Shown: positions 2,932 to 50,134 of the stretch, one piece after another
Layout of the letters: every line of letters starts with the position of its first letter
Numbering within the stretch: position 1 is the stretch's first letter
From: Pseudomonadota bacterium
GTDB lineage: Bacteria > Myxococcota_A > UBA796 > GCA-2862545
Direction: 5' to 3'
Assembly (NCBI GenBank): GCA_023954855.1
Contig: JAGSGY010000037.1
Coordinates: forward strand, 1-50,134
DNA: 50,134 bases
Notes under the pieces: model-generated
What the model was told of the DNA's origin: nothing
Database searches by the model: none
Seen by the model: the letters and a program-made list of their open reading frames with translations, nothing else
Translations under genes and position numbers: made by a program

Positions 2932-3399
2932 ATGAAGAAGGCTGACGTCATCGAGGCCCTTCTGGCGACGCTCTGTTCCGAGCGTGACGGGCTGGCGCGC
3001 ATGACCCAAGCAGCCCGCGACGAGGCCACCCACGGAGAGTCGCGTCCTGAGAACCAGTACGACACCCGGGCCCTCGAAGCCTCCTATCTGGCAGCGGGTC
3101 AGGGCCAGAGGCTCATCGAGCTCGGTCAGCTGATTGGTTGGCTTGAGCTCGCGGGGGCGGACTGCGACGTTGTGAGGGTCGGTGCCCTGCTCGAGCTCGA
3201 GTCGGACGCCGGAGCCGCACGGTGGCTCTTCGTCGCCCCGGCGGGTGGCACACGCCTTCACCTCGACGGCAAGACCGTCGACGTCATCTCACCCGCATCG
3301 CTCTTCGGGCGCGCTCTGGCGGGGCTCGAGGCCGGTGACTCTGCCGAAGTGGTCGGCCCACGCGGGCGGAGCGAGTGGGAGCTACTCGCCGTCTACTAG
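2932..3399 (+). CDS. GreA/GreB C-terminal-domain protein (transcription elongation factor-like)
   Basis: The 155-residue product has a helical N-terminal half containing ARDEATHGESRPENQYDTRA and a C-terminal half ending in VISPASLFGRALAGLEAGD, which matches the FKBP-like C-terminal domain of GreA/GreB (S-P-x-S-P-x-G-x-A-L-x-G-x-x-x-G-D). Acidic residues in the N-terminal half are where the coiled-coil tip of Gre factors would be, but the coiled coil is shorter than in GreA. Such proteins are thought to enter the RNA polymerase secondary channel; here the role is inferred only. The ATG follows AGGTG at a spacing of four to five bases. The stop overlaps by four bases the end of a small convergent ORF. 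Confidence 0.8.
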   Translation: MKKADVIEALLATLCSERDGLARMTQAARDEATHGESRPENQYDTRALEASYLAAGQGQRLIELGQLIGWLELAGADCDVVRVGALLELESDAGAARWLFVAPAGGTRLHLDGKTVDVISPASLFGRALAGLEAGDSAEVVGPRGRSEWELLAVY

Positions 3400-3584: not shown

Positions 3585-4721
3585 CTAGACCGGTCTTCCG
3601 CCACATGGATAGCTGCCGAGATTTCGCAGCGTCGTGCACTCGGCCTCGGCTTCGGCAAGCGCCTCATGAACTGCAGCTGACGCGCTGTGACCATCGACAT
3701 CGAGGTAGAAGCGGTACTTCCAGGGCGTGCCGACGATGGGGCGCGACTCGAGCTTCGTGAGGCTGACGCCCCGCTTCGAGAACGCCGCGAGCACCCGGCC
3801 CAAGGCCCCGGGCTCGTGCGCGAGCTCCATGAGCAGCGACGTACGGCACGGAACATCCTCCCCCACCGTCGCAGCCTCGGTCGCGACCTCGACGAAGCGC
3901 GTGAAGTTGCCGGCCTGCGTCTGAATGTCCCGGGCCACGATCTCGAGCCCGTAGTGCTCGGCCGCCGCCTCGCTGGCGATCGCCGCAAGATGCCCCTGCC
4001 CCAGGTCGCGCACCATGCGGGCGGCACCCGCCGTGTCGAAGGCCTCGACCGGCTGCATCCAGGTGTGGGTCTGGAAGTAGACATCACACTGCCGAAGCGC
4101 TTGAGGATGGCTGTGAACCTCGCGAATATCGTCTAGAGACGTGCCTGGGAGGGCCAGAAGGCAGTGCTGAATGTGACTCACCACCTCTGACGTGATGGTC
4201 ACTCCCCCCTCGGCGAGCAGGTCGTAGGTCTCGGTGATGCTCCCAGCGGTCGTGTTCTCGATCGGAAGCAATGCCACGTGAGCCCGGCGCTCCCGCACCG
4301 CCTGAACCGCATCGCGAAAGGTCCTGTGGCCCGTAAGCAGCGCCCCAGATTCGCGACCCGCATAGCGGCGTTGCGCGGCCAAGTGGGTGTAGCAACCCTC
4401 GACGCCCTGGTAGGCCACCGACAGCGGTGCGGTCGCGCGGGCACGAACATGCGCCTGCTGCCTGGCAACGCTCCACTCGAGGATCAGACGGTACAAGCCC
4501 TCGATGCGATGTGGGTCCAGACCCACTTCCTGGGCCATCGAACGCACACGCTCGAACACCACGCCCTCGCGAGACGCATCTCGAAACGGCGACGCGGAGT
4601 CGAGCTTGGCCTCGGCAATCGGAACCACGACTTCCATACGGCGACGAAGCACGTCGATCAGCTCGCGATCAAGCGCGAGGATTCGCTCGCGAAGGTCGGT
4701 CAGTTCGGGCTCGGCAGGCAT
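3585..4721 (-). CDS. pheA: bifunctional chorismate mutase / prephenate dehydratase (P-protein)
   Basis: The 378-residue enzyme makes phenylpyruvate from chorismate through prephenate. Residues 1 to ~90 are an AroQ-type chorismate mutase helix bundle (LRERILALDRELIDVLRRRM). Residues ~100 to 280 are the dehydratase, with AYQGVEGCYTHLAA at its start, LPIENTTAGSI, and the catalytic-loop NFTRF. Residues ~285 to 365 are an ACT domain with GALGRVLAAFSKRGVSL and the ESRP phenylalanine-binding motif, so feedback inhibition by Phe is likely. The ATG at 4721 is preceded by AGGAG. It diverges from the haemoglobin operon across an ~80-base gap. Confidence 0.96.
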   Translation of the reverse strand: MPAEPELTDLRERILALDRELIDVLRRRMEVVVPIAEAKLDSASPFRDASREGVVFERVRSMAQEVGLDPHRIEGLYRLILEWSVARQQAHVRARATAPLSVAYQGVEGCYTHLAAQRRYAGRESGALLTGHRTFRDAVQAVRERRAHVALLPIENTTAGSITETYDLLAEGGVTITSEVVSHIQHCLLALPGTSLDDIREVHSHPQALRQCDVYFQTHTWMQPVEAFDTAGAARMVRDLGQGHLAAIASEAAAEHYGLEIVARDIQTQAGNFTRFVEVATEAATVGEDVPCRTSLLMELAHEPGALGRVLAAFSKRGVSLTKLESRPIVGTPWKYRFYLDVDGHSASAAVHEALAEAEAECTTLRNLGSYPCGGRPV

Positions 4722-4803
4722 CGGACTCCTAGGAGGCAGCGCCTATCGTCGCACAACGGGCCATGCGAGCGCACCGTCGTTATCTCTGGGGCGGGGAGGC
4801 CAC

Positions 4804-5184
4804 CTGCAGCCAAATCTCTATGAGCGCCTAGGCGGAGCCGAGGGCCTGCGAGCCATCGTCGACCACTTCTACGATGTCATGGACGAGGATCCGCTGGTAA
4901 AGCCGATTCGCGACATGCACGCAGCGGATCTCGGCACCGCACGCGACAAGCTCTTCGAGTTCCTCTCGGGCTGGACCGGCGGCCCGGGGCTGTACATCGC
5001 GAAGTACGGCCATCCACGCCTTCGCCGCCGCCACATGCACGTGTCCATTGGTGCAGAAGAAGCCGAGCAGTGGATGCACTGCATGCGTGCCGCATTGGCC
5101 GAGTGCGTCTCGGACGACTCGCTGAGACGGGATCTCGAAGCCCAGTTTACCCGCGTCGCCAACCACATGCGCAACCGAGCGTGA
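4804..5184 (+). CDS. group II truncated haemoglobin, apparently with a CTG start
   Basis: The frame encodes PNLYERLGGAEGLRAIVDHF, an N-terminus typical of group II truncated globins (trHbO), then the B10 Tyr in HFYDVM, and RRRHMHVSIG with the proximal F8 His, followed by EQWMHCM with the TrpG8. No ATG, GTG or TTG lies in frame between the pheA start and this N-terminus. A CTG at 4804 follows GGGGAGG at four bases and gives 126 residues, the normal family length. The only upstream in-frame ATG (4504) would add a 100-residue Arg/Ser-rich stretch antisense to pheA. The product probably binds O2 or NO, or transfers electrons. Its stop overlaps the next start (GTGA), so translation is coupled. Confidence 0.85.
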   Translation: MQPNLYERLGGAEGLRAIVDHFYDVMDEDPLVKPIRDMHAADLGTARDKLFEFLSGWTGGPGLYIAKYGHPRLRRRHMHVSIGAEEAEQWMHCMRAALAECVSDDSLRRDLEAQFTRVANHMRNRA

Positions 5185-6263
5185 ACGCCGCGCTCGACGG
5201 GATGCGCTCCGTGTGGACCCGCAGCCAGCGTATACGCACCCCGGCGTTCTTCCTAGCTGGCGTCACCTGGGACTACGCGACACTCCAGCTCGAGAGCGCC
5301 ATCGATCAGGTGCTCATCGCGGTCTACCTGGTCGGCGTGCTCATCCTCGTGGTGGCCACCGAGCGCCACGACCGAAAGCGGTGGCTGCCAGAGATCGCGA
5401 TCCGCGCAGCCAAGGCCCTACCCCTGGCCACCCAGTTCTTGCTCGGAGCCCTGCTCTCGGCACTCGCCATCTCGGTGTGGCGTGCCGCACACCCTGGTCC
5501 AGCCTCCCTATTCGTCGCCCTGCTCGCGGGACTTGCCGTCGCCAATGAAGCGCGCTCGGACAGCGGCCGCGGCACGGCATCGCGCTTCGCCCTAGCGGGC
5601 TTTCTCAGCTACCAAGTCCTCGCCCTTCTCATCCCGCTGGCGACCGGCACCCTGTGGAGTCCCCTCCCGGCTCTCGTAGGAACCGCCGGGCTTGTCGGCG
5701 CAACCATCTGGGCCTCGCGCGTTCATGTCGAAGGCCGGGAACCCCCACCGACCATCCATCAGCGCACCCAGGACCTCGTGATCCCCACGATCGCATCCTC
5801 GGGGGCCGTGCTCGCCCTACTGGTCTCCACCTGGCTCGGCCTCGTTCCGCCTCTGCCGCTCGTTCTGAAGCGGGCCGCGGTCGCCACCGATGTCGAGCGC
5901 ACCGCAGACGGCCCAGAGCTCGCGGACCCAATCTGGACCGATAGCCTGATGCGCCTCGTTCTCGGACGGCCCACCGTACGCTGGGCGCCAGGAGAGAAGG
6001 TGCTCGTCTACACGGCCGTCCACGCCCCAACCGGCATGGACCTCGAGCTCATTCACGAATGGGAGCACTACGACCCGAGCGCTGGAGGCTGGGTCTCTAC
6101 GGATCGGATTCCGCTCACCGTGCGCGGTGGCCGAGAAGGCGGCTGGAGAACGTGGTCGACGAAGACACGGCTCTCCGAGGGGGACTGGCGGGTTCGCGTA
6201 CAGACCCCTTACGGCCAGGAACTCGGGCGGGTGCCCTTTATCGTCGACAAGCTCGTGCCATGA
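5181..6263 (+). CDS. DUF2914 multi-pass membrane protein
   Basis: The product is 360 residues from the GTG at 5181, which overlaps the globin stop by four bases. Residues ~20 to 235 hold about six hydrophobic segments (for example VLIAVYLVGVLILVVA and FLLGALLSALAISV). The C-terminal ~70 residues match DUF2914: HEWEHYDPSAGGWVS, then GGWRTWSTKTRL and GDWRVRVQTPYGQELGRVPF. DUF2914 is usually extracytoplasmic and of unknown function. An ATG at 5202 is a possible alternative start. Coupling to a globin upstream and a Cys-rich lipoprotein downstream suggests an envelope function, but what it is cannot be inferred. Confidence 0.85.
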   Translation: MNAALDGMRSVWTRSQRIRTPAFFLAGVTWDYATLQLESAIDQVLIAVYLVGVLILVVATERHDRKRWLPEIAIRAAKALPLATQFLLGALLSALAISVWRAAHPGPASLFVALLAGLAVANEARSDSGRGTASRFALAGFLSYQVLALLIPLATGTLWSPLPALVGTAGLVGATIWASRVHVEGREPPPTIHQRTQDLVIPTIASSGAVLALLVSTWLGLVPPLPLVLKRAAVATDVERTADGPELADPIWTDSLMRLVLGRPTVRWAPGEKVLVYTAVHAPTGMDLELIHEWEHYDPSAGGWVSTDRIPLTVRGGREGGWRTWSTKTRLSEGDWRVRVQTPYGQELGRVPFIVDKLVP

Positions 6264-43023: not shown

Positions 43024-46000
43024 GTGCAGCTCCCCGCGCCATTCGGGAAATACGAGCTTCTCGAGCGCATCGCGACGGGAGGCATGGCAGAGGTGTACCT
43101 CGCGCGGAGCTTCGGAGTCGCGGGCTTCGAGAAACGCTTGGTCATCAAGCGCATTCGAGAGGAGCACGCAGAGGACCCACGCTTCATCTCGATGTTCATC
43201 AACGAGGCGAAGATCGCGGTGCACTTGAACCACCCCAATGTGGTGCAGGTGTACGATCTGGGACGGGTCGGCCCCTCCTGGTACATGGCGATGGAGCATC
43301 TGCACGGGCGCGACCTGACGCGTCTGGTGAAGACCCTGCGAGCCGTGGAAGAACGACTTCCCCTCCCGGTCGCCGTCCACATCGTCGCCGAGTCCTGCCG
43401 CGGTCTGCACTATGCGCACTCGGTGAGCGCCCCAGAGGGCACGGTGCTTGGGCTGGTCCATCGCGACGTCAGCCCCCACAACCTCGTCGTCACCTTCGAC
43501 GGCTCGGTGAAGCTCGTCGACTTCGGCGTGGCGCGCGTCATCAACACGCAGCTCGGCTCTGAGAAGAGCAAGGGAAGCGGAAGGCCCGGCGGGGGCAAGT
43601 ACGCCTACATGAGCCCGGAACAGGCGAATGGAGAGGAGGTCGATCCTCGAAGCGACATCTTCTCGGCCGGCATCGTCCTCTGGGAGCTCATTGCCGGGCA
43701 CCGTCTCTTTCAGCACGAGGACGCGCAAGAGAAGCTCAGGCGCGTACGCGAGGCGGTCATCCCCGACCTCAGCGAGACGATGGGTCTCGACTCAGCGCTC
43801 TGGGCGATCCTCTCGAAGGCCCTCGCTCGCGAGCGAGACGAGCGCTACGCCACGGCTGGGGAGTTCGAGGAAGACCTGCGGACCTGGCTGTTCGAGCACG
43901 CGGCCGAAGACCACCGCGGCGCCCTGATCAGCGAAATGCGGCGGGCATTTCCCGGTGAAGCGGACCGCAACCCTCTCGGCTTAGGCCTCGCCCGCCTCGT
44001 CGCCGACGTCGAGCGCTTGGATGCGCCCGAACCCACGCTCACCGCTGGCACTGCCACACCTGTCGGAAGCGGACTCCCGGGTCTGCTGAGCACGCCCGAT
44101 GGTGAGCGCAAGGCCGTCGTCAGCGTCGTCGTCGACGTGGACGGGCTCACGGACCTGTCGCTGAAGCTCGAGCCCGACGACCTCTACAAGCAGCACTACC
44201 GCTTGCTTCGCTGGGTGCGCAGCATCGTCGATCGCTACGATGGGGTTGTGGTCACCGCGATCGATGACCAGGTCGTGCTGTTGTTTGGCGCCCACAAGAA
44301 TCGCCACGACGACGCTGCCAGAGCCCTCGAGTGCGCACTCGAGCTCCAACGCCAAGTCGGCAGCCTGCGCTCGAAGGGCCTCCAGCTCGAGCTTGCGATG
44401 GGTGTGCACGCTGGCGAGGTGACCACAGCTTCCGGTGGGCGGCGCGAGACCCGCTACCTCTCGCGAGGCGACACCACACGCTTCGCGCGGAGGCTATCTG
44501 CCCGTGCGGACCACGGTGAAATCCTGGTCTCCGAGCGCATCATCCGCGCCACCGACGCCTTGTTTCGCTACCGAAAGGGCCCCGAAGTCCTGAACCGCGG
44601 AGGAAAGCCTCCATCGCGGAGCTGGTCGGTCAACGCACGTCGTCGAGGCATCCGGGTGGCCGGAAAGGGCCCGTGGCTTCGGCGCGCCCAAGAGCTCGAT
44701 GTCATCCGCGACCACTTGATGCGGCTCGCTTCCGGTAAAGGCACGTCGCTTGCCTTGGTTGGAGCGCCGGGCACCGGAAAGTCCCGGCTGATTCGGGAGA
44801 TCCAGACCCTCGCCCAGCGACGTGGCTTGCCGATGTACGTCGCGCGCTGCACGCCCTACGGCGAAGACCCCGCGATGGAGCCGTTCCGTGACCTGGTCCG
44901 CTCGGTTCTCGGCCTCAGCGGCGACCCCTCACAAGCCGAGATCGAAGCCGCGCTGCCACGCCTCACTCAGCTCGGTCTGACGCCGCGCAGCATCGAAGTC
45001 GTCGGAGCGCTGCTGAGCAACCGCAAAGCCGCCCAGGCCGACGATGTGTGGGACGCCTTGCAACGCATTGTGCACGGCCTCTCCCACGACGGAGCCCTGG
45101 TGTTCGCCGTCGAGGACCTGCACCACCTGCAGCCCGCCGAGATGCGACGCCTCGCTCAGCTTGTAAAGAGCCTGCTCTCCCAGCCGGTCTTCTTCCTCGG
45201 CACGGCACAGGGCATGCTGACCTCCGAGTTCTCGGGCATGGGCGAGGTCGTCGAGCTTGGCGCTTTCCCAAGCCACGTCCAACGACGCCTGGTCGCGCAC
45301 CTTCTCGACGCGGAGTCCGTAGACGTCGGCCTTCTCGAGTTGATCGAGAGCACCTGCGAGGGCAACGCCCTCTACATCGAAGAGATGGTCAAGTACCTGA
45401 TTCAGCGCAAGGCCGTCGAGGTCAACGACGGGCGAGCGGCACTGTCCGCCGAGGTCGGCGAAGGGGCCATCCCTGAGACGCTCACGGCCGTCGTCGCTTC
45501 GCGCATCGACGCACTCGAGCCGGCCTCGAAGGGCATGCTGCAGCTCGCAGCGACCATCCGCGGAACCTTCAGCGCTCGCCTTCTCGCAGAGGCTGCGGGA
45601 CTCGATGACCCGACCCCGATCCTGACCAATCTCGCGTCACACGGGTTGATCGTCCGCACTCAGACCACGGATGAGTGGAGCTTCGCCAGCCACCTCGTCC
45701 GGCGGGTCGCACTCCACGGCATCCTCGGGGTCCAGCGGCGCAGCTACCACGGGCTCATCGCCTCGGCCCTCGAGACGCTCTACGCCGAAGATATCGACGC
45801 GTACATTGAGTCGCTCGCCCAGCACTGTGCGGAGGCTGGGCGCCACCTCGATGCCGCCCGCTACGCCTACCGCGCCGGCCAGCAACTTGAGCGCAGCCAG
45901 CTCCTGCAGCGGGCCGCCAACTACTACACCTCTGGACTGAAGTCTCTCGAGCAAGCCCCTCGCGACCCCGAGACCTGGGATGCCCGCATGCAGGGCGAGG

Positions 46001-46998
46001 CGATGTTGCGCCTGGCCCACGGTCTCGTGCTCAAGCTGATGGGAGACGTCAAGGGCGGCGAGTACGCCCTGCAGATCGCGCTGGACGTTGCCGGGGACGT
46101 TGGCGTTCCCTGGGTTGAGGTTCGCGCCCACCTCGATCTCGGTCGCAGCTATCTGGAGCGTGGAAAGCATCCCCTCGCCCGCGCCCATCTGCAGCAGGCC
46201 CGTGCGCTCCTCGTCATCGAACAAGACCCGGAACTTGAGCTGCAGGCCGCCGAAGCGACCGCCGTCCTCGCCCATGAAGAAGGACGAAACGACGATGCGC
46301 GCGCACGCTGGGAGGAAGCCCTCGAGCTCGCGGGAGCGGACCACGCCGCCGTCGCTCGCTGCCTTCTCGGACTTGCGAGCCAGCAGATCCGAACCGGGGA
46401 CACCGACCGCGCCTCGCCCACACTCAAGCGCGCCTTCGCCGCCGCCGAAGAAGCGAACGACCCCATCCTTCAGGGCCGGGCGCTGAACAACCAAGGCATC
46501 CTGCACTCCACGATGGGACAGCACGACGAGGCCTTGGCCTGCTTTCGGCAGGCCCTTCGGGTGCGCGAGGGCATACAGTACACGCGCGGCGTGATGGTGA
46601 ACTACCACAACATCGGCGACACCTACTTCAACCTCGAGGAGTGGTCACGAGCATGGGTGGCGTTTGCCCGTAGCCGCGAGCTTGCGGCGCAGATGGGCTG
46701 GGACCGCGGCATCGCGCTCAACGACACCTACATGGGCTACATCGAGACCGTCCGCGACAAGTGGTCCTCTGGTGTCGAGCGCATGCGGCACGCCGTCGAA
46801 CTGGCGCGGTCGTTCAAGGACGCTGAGATCACGGCCTTCGGCCTCTGGCTTCAGGCGCGAGCGCATGCCGACCGCGGAGACACCGAGACCGCTCTGCCCT
46901 TGCTCGATGCCGCCGAACAAGCCGCCGCGGGCATCGAGATGGTCCATATGCTCGAGAGCATCGAGGCCCTACGAACCACGCTCGCCGCTAATCCCTAG
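43024..46998 (+). CDS. Ser/Thr kinase - nucleotide-cyclase-like - ATPase - TPR fusion protein
   Basis: This 1324-residue multidomain protein begins with an active-looking Hanks kinase (ATGGMAEVYLA, VIKRI, HRDVSPHN with Asp148, VDFGVAR). Residues ~365 to 550 resemble a class III cyclase domain: VVSVVVDVDGLTDLS, VTAIDDQVVLLFGA, LAMGVHAGEV and then TTRFARRLSARADHGEILVS, where the usual V-N-x-A-A-R has lost its Asn. From ~575 a STAND/MalT-type ATPase has Walker A GAPGTGKSRL and Walker B FAVEDLH. TPR-like repeats fill ~930 to 1320. It starts on GTG 43024. A signal hub is likely; which outputs are live is unknown. Confidence 0.9.
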   Translation: MQLPAPFGKYELLERIATGGMAEVYLARSFGVAGFEKRLVIKRIREEHAEDPRFISMFINEAKIAVHLNHPNVVQVYDLGRVGPSWYMAMEHLHGRDLTRLVKTLRAVEERLPLPVAVHIVAESCRGLHYAHSVSAPEGTVLGLVHRDVSPHNLVVTFDGSVKLVDFGVARVINTQLGSEKSKGSGRPGGGKYAYMSPEQANGEEVDPRSDIFSAGIVLWELIAGHRLFQHEDAQEKLRRVREAVIPDLSETMGLDSALWAILSKALARERDERYATAGEFEEDLRTWLFEHAAEDHRGALISEMRRAFPGEADRNPLGLGLARLVADVERLDAPEPTLTAGTATPVGSGLPGLLSTPDGERKAVVSVVVDVDGLTDLSLKLEPDDLYKQHYRLLRWVRSIVDRYDGVVVTAIDDQVVLLFGAHKNRHDDAARALECALELQRQVGSLRSKGLQLELAMGVHAGEVTTASGGRRETRYLSRGDTTRFARRLSARADHGEILVSERIIRATDALFRYRKGPEVLNRGGKPPSRSWSVNARRRGIRVAGKGPWLRRAQELDVIRDHLMRLASGKGTSLALVGAPGTGKSRLIREIQTLAQRRGLPMYVARCTPYGEDPAMEPFRDLVRSVLGLSGDPSQAEIEAALPRLTQLGLTPRSIEVVGALLSNRKAAQADDVWDALQRIVHGLSHDGALVFAVEDLHHLQPAEMRRLAQLVKSLLSQPVFFLGTAQGMLTSEFSGMGEVVELGAFPSHVQRRLVAHLLDAESVDVGLLELIESTCEGNALYIEEMVKYLIQRKAVEVNDGRAALSAEVGEGAIPETLTAVVASRIDALEPASKGMLQLAATIRGTFSARLLAEAAGLDDPTPILTNLASHGLIVRTQTTDEWSFASHLVRRVALHGILGVQRRSYHGLIASALETLYAEDIDAYIESLAQHCAEAGRHLDAARYAYRAGQQLERSQLLQRAANYYTSGLKSLEQAPRDPETWDARMQGEAMLRLAHGLVLKLMGDVKGGEYALQIALDVAGDVGVPWVEVRAHLDLGRSYLERGKHPLARAHLQQARALLVIEQDPELELQAAEATAVLAHEEGRNDDARARWEEALELAGADHAAVARCLLGLASQQIRTGDTDRASPTLKRAFAAAEEANDPILQGRALNNQGILHSTMGQHDEALACFRQALRVREGIQYTRGVMVNYHNIGDTYFNLEEWSRAWVAFARSRELAAQMGWDRGIALNDTYMGYIETVRDKWSSGVERMRHAVELARSFKDAEITAFGLWLQARAHADRGDTETALPLLDAAEQAAAGIEMVHMLESIEALRTTLAANP

Positions 46999-48085
46999 GG
47001 CTGCCTGGGTTGAGGCGCGCGAACTCTTCGATGAGCGCCCGGCTCTCGTCGTCGAGCTGCCTCGGAACGACGATGCGCACGCGAACGTAGAGGTCCTCGG
47101 GCTTGCCGTCGGGTCCCTTCGCGCCCTTGCCCTTTAGACGCAGGCGCATGCCCGAGCTCGTGCCGGCGGGAATCGTGATGCGCACCACGCCCTGGGGTGT
47201 CGGCAGCTCGATGCGTCCGCCGAGGATGGCCTCCGCAACCGAGACATCGACAACATCAGAGGAGCTGGCCTCCGACTTAGACTCGGGCCGCGCGCGGCGC
47301 TCGCTGCGCACCCGTCCCACCACGTTGACCCGAACGATGAGGTCGCCGTACGGCCCCCCATTCGCGCCCGCGTTGCCGAGGCCCCGTTCACGGAAGGTCG
47401 CGCCGGTCGTGGTTCCGGGAACAATCCGCACATCTGCGATGTCTTGCACGCGGACCAGTCCAGGATCCGGCGAGCCCGGGCGCCAGGAATCCGCGCGTTG
47501 TTGGCGGTAGTACACCGCAGTGACGCTACCGCCGCGCGCGGCTACGCCAGCGGGCACATCCAAGTCCACCTCGACGTCCTCGCCGGGAACCGGGTCGCGA
47601 TTGGGTGGTGGCGGCCCAGCCGACTCACGCCCGGTAGTGGAGCGCGTGCGGCGACGGTCCGCGTTTCCGAAGCCGAAGTCGCCGAAGTCGTTGAATAAGT
47701 CGTCGAGATCGAGGTGATTCTCGGGATTGTGGCGCGCGCCCTTGGTACTCGCGTGTCCTCCGGCGGCGGACGTCCCGTAGCTCGGCCCACTGCGCGAATC
47801 GCGGCGCTCGGTGCCCCGGTAAAATGCATCGAAGAAGGAACCACCGGCGCCGGCGCCCATGCCTCCGCGTCGCTGGCCACGACGATCGTAGCGGCCGCGC
47901 GTCATCGGATCCATGAGCGTCTCGTACGCTGTGCGAGCGACCTTGAAGCGCTCGGCGAGGACTGGGTCGTCCCCAGCCACATCGGGGTGACATTCACGCG
48001 CGATTTTGCGAAAGGCCTTCTTGATGTCTTGCGTCGACGCGTCCTGTGAGACGCCGAGAATGCCGTAGTAGTCCTGAGAGGGCAT
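46988..48085 (-). CDS. DnaJ-family co-chaperone without zinc finger
   Basis: The 365-residue protein has an N-terminal J-domain (YYGILGVSQDASTQDIKKAF) with the HPD motif in ECHPDVAG, a Gly/Phe-rich stretch (FGDFGFGN) and two C-terminal beta-sandwich segments (PAGVAARGGSV, ELPTPQGVVRITIPAGT). There is no Cys-rich zinc-finger, so it is the type II (CbpA-like) form. It stimulates DnaK-type chaperones. Its stop overlaps the end of the giant kinase gene by about ten bases. It is the last normal chromosomal gene before the cassette-like region. Confidence 0.93.
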   Translation of the reverse strand: MPSQDYYGILGVSQDASTQDIKKAFRKIARECHPDVAGDDPVLAERFKVARTAYETLMDPMTRGRYDRRGQRRGGMGAGAGGSFFDAFYRGTERRDSRSGPSYGTSAAGGHASTKGARHNPENHLDLDDLFNDFGDFGFGNADRRRTRSTTGRESAGPPPPNRDPVPGEDVEVDLDVPAGVAARGGSVTAVYYRQQRADSWRPGSPDPGLVRVQDIADVRIVPGTTTGATFRERGLGNAGANGGPYGDLIVRVNVVGRVRSERRARPESKSEASSSDVVDVSVAEAILGGRIELPTPQGVVRITIPAGTSSGMRLRLKGKGAKGPDGKPEDLYVRVRIVVPRQLDDESRALIEEFARLNPGSPRD

Positions 48086-48727: not shown

Positions 48728-48738
48728 GGCGTTAGGCA
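48728..48738 (+). repeat. left copy of GGCGTTAGGCA (integron core-site-like)
   Basis: GGCGTTAGGCA contains GTTAGGC, which fits the integron R' core consensus GTTRRRY. The identical 11-mer closes the window at 50124-50134. No R''/L'' partner is found upstream, so the rest of an attC or attI cannot be shown here. Confidence 0.7.
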
Positions 48739-48856
48739 CGTCTAAATGGTCAATGTTCCAACTGGGCCATCTAGGACACTAAGGTCGTTCCCTGCGGCGC
48801 GGGTGTGCATCTGGGTGGAGCGCCCCCTGATACAGTCTCGTTGACTTGGATGGCTG

Positions 48857-49435
48857 ATGACTCTCAACGCCGCTGACCTACGTTCTGTGGGCGGCAAATG
48901 CTACGGACATCTCTTTGAGAACGTCCAAACTGGACTACCCCGCGACATCTTCTGGTCCTTCACGCTTGAGTTCGCACCTGTGGACGTTGACGGGGAAGAA
49001 CTCCAGCCAGCATTGACCATCGAGTGGCTGACGAGGCCGCTCCGCCAATGGAGGGACCTCGTTGGGGCGAGTTGGAGCGGGCATTTCGGGTCGGGCACGG
49101 CCGAATGCAGTGTTTACCTACTCGAACATATTTGCGGTGAGGACTTCAGCCTCGAGGTTCTGGACTGGCGGAGGGCCGAGACAAATCGGCGTGACCCCAG
49201 CGCTTATGTTCAGCTGAAGGTGCGCGCCTCTATGACGGTTGACCTTGCAGAGGGCGGCGACGGAGCCATTCAGCGCATAGTGGGAGAGGCCTGGCTCGAT
49301 TTCGCTGGCGTGGTCGTCAATCTCGACGGCAGGGTTGACGACCCCGCCGTTCTGGATCCATTCATCGACGCGGCGTGTCTGAAACCGCCCCAGGCGGGAC
49401 GCGCGTGGTGGCCCCCCCGGGTCGGGCCAAGCTAG
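48857..49435 (+). CDS. hypothetical protein carried by the cassette
   Basis: The 192-residue product is not recognised. It has no signal peptide or membrane segment, many Trp residues (IFWSFTLEF, EWLTRPLRQWRDLVGASW) and alternating strand-like patterns; soluble single-domain proteins of this sort are common in cassettes and include immunity-like and antiphage proteins, but nothing specific supports that here. The GGA before the ATG is a weak ribosome-binding site. By eye its base composition is a little less GC-rich and its codon choice less biased than in the genes before 48 kb (not computed). Confidence 0.65.
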   Translation: MTLNAADLRSVGGKCYGHLFENVQTGLPRDIFWSFTLEFAPVDVDGEELQPALTIEWLTRPLRQWRDLVGASWSGHFGSGTAECSVYLLEHICGEDFSLEVLDWRRAETNRRDPSAYVQLKVRASMTVDLAEGGDGAIQRIVGEAWLDFAGVVVNLDGRVDDPAVLDPFIDAACLKPPQAGRAWWPPRVGPS

Positions 49436-49442
49436 TCCGTCC

Positions 49443-49464
49443 CCCCGGATGCGGCGGTCCGGGG
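49443..49464 (+). terminator. small hairpin after the cassette gene
   Basis: CCCCGGA (49443-49449) pairs with TCCGGGG (49458-49464) around an eight-base loop, a few bases after the stop codon. No U-tract follows, so it is a weak candidate. Confidence 0.3.
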
Positions 49465-49525
49465 CAATACCGAACCGGATTCGACTCGTAGGGTAGGGGC
49501 GTCTCTGGCCCATCGGGGCGTCCTC

Positions 49526-49858
49526 TCAGCGCCTCCGCCGCCGACGATGCCCTCTAGGAGGGCCTGAGGGACTTGCACTCGATGAGTTGGGCGTTGCGTA
49601 GACTGGTGCGTGCCGTAGCGGGCCAAGGCACGCATTGGGGGGGCGCCCCGGCGCTGTCGCGACCGAGGGAGCCACGTGTTGAGCGGCCTGATTCACCGGT
49701 GTCGCAACCGAGGTGATGGTGGCCATCAAGACCTGAGCCAACGAAGCACCCAGCGCCCCTGCGGCGTAGGCGACGGGCGTCATCGCCGCGGGCGGGATGA
49801 AGACAACGTGTTTGAGAGGCTCAGTCAGAGCGGGTCCGCTGACGGAGGCCATGCGCAT
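49526..49858 (-). CDS. weak candidate ORF antisense to the cassette direction
   Basis: The 110-residue frame opens with MRMASVSGPALTEPLKHVVF and has an Ala-rich hydrophobic segment (AAGALGASLAQVLMATITSV) before degrading into a Pro/Ser/Arg tail ending in six Arg. The first ~75 residues have high third-position GC and look coding, but the tail does not. It could be a real small membrane protein, a remnant, or a chance frame. Confidence 0.25.
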   Translation of the reverse strand: MRMASVSGPALTEPLKHVVFIPPAAMTPVAYAAGALGASLAQVLMATITSVATPVNQAAQHVAPSVATAPGRPPNACLGPLRHAPVYATPNSSSASPSGPPRGHRRRRRR

Positions 49859-50052
49859 GCCGAGCCGATCGAGCCTGGAGGCGTCGGGTCGGCATCCACC
49901 GGGGCAGGGCCGGCGAACGCTTCCGGGCCCCTCACGGGTTGCATCTCACTCGCGGCTTCGTGGGCGTAGACCCACACGAGAAGGCCGCCTGCTGACCATC
50001 AAATGTGGTCGGGTTGAGCAGGCCTCCGAGGTTTCGCGGCGTATGCGCCCGA

Positions 50053-50133
50053 GCATAACGTTGGTTGCTACTGACGACCGGTCGCTACGCTCCCCTGCCG
50101 CTGCGCGGCTCGCAGTAGAACCGGGCGTTAGGC
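50053..50133 (+). other. attC-like recombination site
   Basis: Four arms are present in attC order. R'' GCATAACG (50053-50060) pairs 7 of 8 with R' CGTTAGGC (50126-50133). L'' GGTTGCTACTG (50063-50073) pairs with L' CAGTAGAACC (50113-50122) perfectly except for one unpaired G at 50067, the expected extrahelical base. The 39-base central loop contains the palindrome CGACCGGTCG (50075-50084). Total ~81 bases, within the normal attC range. Confidence 0.8.
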
Positions 50134-50134
50134 A
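50124..50134 (+). repeat. right copy of GGCGTTAGGCA, at the end of the window
   Basis: Identical to 48728-48738. It overlaps the R' arm of the attC-like site, and the window ends on its last base. Confidence 0.75.

Follow-up and report, generated by a model that had tools for sequence, protein, structure and literature searches.

The window analysed here, a stretch of 50,134 nucleotides, is contig C68, one of the 178 contigs of a 97%-complete genome of 6.1 Mb. Its right part carries an open reading frame of 1324 amino acids (43024–46998), which from its translation looks like a Ser/Thr protein kinase with a cyclase-like domain, an ATPase and TPR-like repeats, followed by a DnaJ-type gene on the − strand (46988–48085), a lone R′-like GTTAGGC on the + strand (48731–48737; context GGCGTTAGGC), a 192-aa ORF on the + strand (48857–49435) and, at the very end, a real integron recombination site (attC), hereafter attC1 (50053–50133), for which the + strand given here is the top strand. 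The DnaJ-type gene has a homolog (77% at the amino-acid level) in a genome of the same genus, Deltaproteobacteria bacterium isolate M1803 (G001); this homology extends only to the gene start (about 48076), which marks the left edge of the inserted region. Synteny at the dnaJ locus was considered as a source of an empty site and set aside: the left boundary is visible there, and the right flank on the continuing contig has no counterpart. The lone GTTAGGC was the only attI candidate seen, and it may be an attI-like or remnant left boundary of the first cassette, which would then span about 48732 to 50127. The presumed gene of this cassette, the 192-aa ORF preceding attC1, matched nothing in Pfam or PADLOC, nor did a counterpart of it turn up in 37 related genomes, and the cassette proteins as a set had no match in PADLOC.

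The last 141 bases of the window (49994–50134, + strand) match the first 141 bases of contig C169 exactly, and the left end of the window overlaps another contig (C65) by the same 141 bases, so that both look like assembly-graph overlaps; the C68–C169 join rests on this 141-base overlap, and the branch point of the assembly lies one base after the R′ box of attC1. C169 continues with an ORF with a DUF6891 domain (219–1364), an intact attC2 (1413–1496), an ORF for a TSP3-repeat lipoprotein on the − strand (1755–2285), an intact attC3 (2787–2875), a stretch without a convincing ORF, a weak attC4 (3625–3712), an ORF for a BD-FAE-type alpha/beta hydrolase lipoprotein (4047–5288) and a weak attC5 (5403–5516). 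All four of these sites were located with our covariance model R1 and have the same orientation as attC1, and the ORFs of cassettes 1, 2 and 5 read on the + strand, towards their attC. The R boxes of attC4 and attC5 are degenerate and these two sites are probably decayed, which suggests that the array degenerates with distance from attC1. With at least three intact sites in a row (attC1–3), two degenerate ones, a single orientation and ORFs between most of them, attC1 opens a short series of exchangeable gene cassettes that continues on C169. Besides, about 103 non-coding bases upstream of attC1 (49496–49597) are 72% alike to positions 3191–3293 of C169 in the fourth cassette, suggesting a common backbone of the two cassettes.

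An attC site is bounded by an R″ box (RYYYAAC) and an R′ box (GTTRRRY) that pair with each other. In attC1, R″ is GCATAAC (50053–50059, one mismatch to the consensus) and R′ is GTTAGGC (50127–50133, a perfect match), and the sequence bears out the initial annotation in that the arms GCATAACG (50053–50060) and CGTTAGGC (50126–50133) pair at 7 of 8 positions. Further in, L″ (GGTT-G-CTACTG, 50063–50073) pairs over ten bases with L′ (CAGTAGAACC) and leaves one extra G on the + strand, giving the layout GCATAAC-G-TT-GGTT[G]CTACTG-...-CAGTAGAACC-GGGC-GTTAGGC. The ten-base pairing and the bulged G had been described before, together with the statement that the bulge was single, which overlooked a second extrahelical base: the first lies at 50067 (G on the top strand, C on the bottom) and the second at 50074 (A on top, T on the bottom), six bases further in. 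The 10-bp stem thus has its extrahelical bases on the side of the L″ arm, and the bottom strand reads T-N6-C.

A rule-based search, which allowed up to one mismatch in the R boxes and required an L stem of nine or more with a top-side bulge, returned one site in the window, attC1, while 300 Markov shuffles of the whole window returned 3 matches to the same rules, 1 of them scoring equal to attC1. The folding energy of the single site was unexceptional (z of −1.2 on the bottom strand and −1.7 on the top), so that folding energy was rejected as evidence for the site. The decisive support comes from covariance models and neighbouring sites. R1 was built from five sites, namely the three intact sites of this genome and two from other genera, leaving out the weaker sites of this genome and those of G001; on this genome it recovered the three intact sites of its training set in a row, plus the two weaker ones and no convincing site elsewhere. 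In a family control on six class 1 integron loci from plasmids, all 20 of its matches (E up to 0.05) lay on the cassette-gene strand at cassette ends, and it recovered 21 sites of the array on the 1.1 Mb plasmid of Gemmatirosa kalamazoonensis. The second model, R2, contained only attC sequences of class 1 plasmid integrons, with its structure line and site choice taken via R1, and is therefore independent in sequence and not fully so in structure; its sole match in the window was 50053–50133, on the + strand only (32.7 bits, E 2.1e-6). A whole-genome search with R2 gave no match, with a first pass that scored only 150 candidates, and a direct search of the same sequence does match. A search of Rfam gave no match.

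The stem pairs also covary. Three pairs changed on both sides in an alignment of eight sites from this genome and G001, and across 43 distinct matches the figure was 12 of 20 pairs, with 92% of cells paired, compared with 9–47% when the pairing was slid; this larger alignment is fitted to the model, and some of its matches lie on the reverse strand. A palindromic repeat of the REP or MITE kind, resembling attC by chance, would likewise be palindromic, intergenic and repeated, and the shuffles yield one look-alike per 100 to 300 windows; nevertheless, such an origin is extremely improbable, given that convincing copies are confined to one head-to-tail array, that a model trained on class 1 sites finds attC1, and that the T-N6-C pattern and the covariation are conserved across families. 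The proposal of a true attC, and with it the covariance-model hit expected at 50053–50133 and the conservation of the arms in neighbouring cassettes and relatives, is accordingly borne out by R1 and R2, by the intact sites on C169 and by attCs in G001 that are up to 94% identical to attC2. Hence attC1 is more than chance, and we are highly confident that 50053–50133 is the first site of a chromosomal integron cassette array.

The right-hand GTTAGGC, the longer L″ arm on the left and the ORFs of cassettes 1, 2 and 5 reading towards the site identify the + strand as the top strand, so that the strand which recombines carries a C at the extrahelical position. The "diagnostic extrahelical G" that had been put forward as the strand-choice signal is therefore the top-strand letter, and no extrahelical G is found on the bottom strand of attC1. 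A real site facing the other way, with recombination on the + strand and the bulged G as the canonical extrahelical base, would fit the near symmetry of the R boxes and the G on the + strand; nevertheless, it is very unlikely, as the longer arm lies on the left like that of class 1 top strands, R1 scores the region at 81 bits on the + strand against 19.6 bits on the −, R2 matches the + strand only, and the same three cassette ORFs read on the + strand towards their attC.

The published norm is T-N6-G, with the extrahelical G called absolutely conserved (PMC2727003); a C is accepted and sometimes preferred, T-N6-C sites being excised well, with blaVIM-2 named as the C-type example (PMC3053210). 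The sites of this genome read T-N6-C on the bottom strand, except attC3, which reads T-N7-C. The extrahelical base was C in 24 of 24 scored sites of this order (mostly found with R1, itself trained on C-type sites), in 20 of 20 scored sites of the Gemmatirosa plasmid array and in both scored sites of Kovacikia, whereas it was G in both scored sites of Diaphorobacter and in 9 of 11 class 1 sites, the other two having C. R2, trained mostly on G-type sites, finds many of the same C-type sites. The G does not define the attC family, since C occurs in 20 of 20 Gemmatirosa and 2 of 11 class 1 sites and T-N6-C sites have been recombined (PMC3053210). In the sequences compared, C in place of G is thus a common and widespread alternative and not a clade signature; a clade-specific C bulge was ruled out by the C in Gemmatirosa, cyanobacterial and two class 1 sites. 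The description of the G as absolutely conserved in early work is hence not general, with C being usual in most environmental arrays sampled here, and C-type sites matter to anyone reading strand choice from the bulge. The two C-type class 1 attCs are those of the estX and cmlA cassettes (L102, 56–125 and 3135–3204), beyond blaVIM-2.

No integron integrase above the TIGR02249 cut-off was found in this 97%-complete assembly or next to the array, and a tblastn search of the window and C169 gave no IntI remnant (best E 0.007, unconvincing). Lacking the adjacent intI of a complete integron, and with no integrase in the assembly and no remnant nearby, the array as assembled is CALIN-like. Among the 38 genomes comprising this one and its relatives, 10 carry an integrase over the cut-off, a same-genus genome among them, and 13 carry sites found with R1. 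In G001, attCs related to attC2 lie on one contig (C69) and a further one on another (C3), while the cassettes of the two genomes have little or no DNA similarity; in this comparison, the attC sites are conserved while the cassette contents change. An exact search with a rare pattern matched only the same-genus genome among the genome contigs and nothing among the viral contigs. The remark that such integrons are poorly described in this kind of genome holds only in part, as an attC model specific to Deltaproteobacteria has been in the literature since 2021 (PMC8352920) and integrases occur in those 10 genomes. In another genome (G023; L070, L071, L026), near-identical 59-nt attCs lie near contig ends, the contigs breaking close to the sites, and the integrase points in the same direction as the array, an arrangement like that of "inverted" integrons.

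According to the known system, the bottom strand of attC1 would fold into a hairpin, whose unpaired spacer and pair of extrahelical bases (a T and, six bases on, a C) would be recognised by an integron integrase; after cutting at R′ (G/TTAGGC), the enzyme would exchange the bottom strand with a second attC site or an attI site, and in this way cassettes could be excised, inserted or reordered. Recombination with C as the extrahelical base would be expected to work at attC1. Because no integrase is present as assembled, the enzyme would have to be supplied in trans or by the missing part of the genome, or else the array would be a decaying remnant. It is possible, if somewhat doubtful, that the array is a fossil CALIN whose attCs are real and whose cassettes are immobile in this lineage: the assembly lacks an integrase, the distal sites (3625–3712 and 5403–5516) have degenerate R boxes, and CALINs are common (PMC9024848). 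Nevertheless, attC1–3 are intact, the same-genus genome has both an integrase over the cut-off and undamaged attCs of this type that accompany other cassettes, and a polymorphism of cassette junctions would agree with the contig ending one base past R′. Draft assemblies fragment at integrons (PMC9024848), and the end of the contig one base after R′ is the point where a different next cassette would split the assembly graph; the assembly probably broke at attC1 because the next cassette differs among cells of the sampled population, and a cassette site may account for where the contig ends. Only tentatively do we suggest that C could be the rule in integrons from the environment, both in this order and in other soil or freshwater phyla, with integrases tuned to it, and that the array may be live, with differing cassettes after attC1.

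Compared with known systems, attC1 is a real though unremarkable member of a known gene-capture system, not a new kind; it adds one more cassette array on a chromosome, that of an uncultured, deltaproteobacterium-like lineage. The attCs of class 1 mobile integrons (aadA, cmlA, estX, qac and aac cassettes) have R″/R′ and L″/L′ boxes and an unpaired spacer in common with the sites described here, and both sets have two extrahelical bases six apart, the first a T, and the same orientation to the cassette gene. In contrast, the sites of this genome are richer in G+C, have a longer terminal part and a length of 81–89 nt in all, and carry C on the bottom strand where the class 1 set mostly carries G. 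The Gemmatirosa plasmid array is C-type like these sites and was found by the same model, but there an adjacent integrase is followed by at least 21 sites, whereas the present array has about five and no integrase. The chromosomal integrons of Deltaproteobacteria (PMC8352920) have the same broad host group and a sedentary chromosomal setting in common with the present array. Outside the array, short-period repeats are common to this genome and the same-genus genome (C169 17387–17502; L068 9412–9500 and 10405–10654), and those in G001 encode Asp-Thr runs in lipoprotein linkers.
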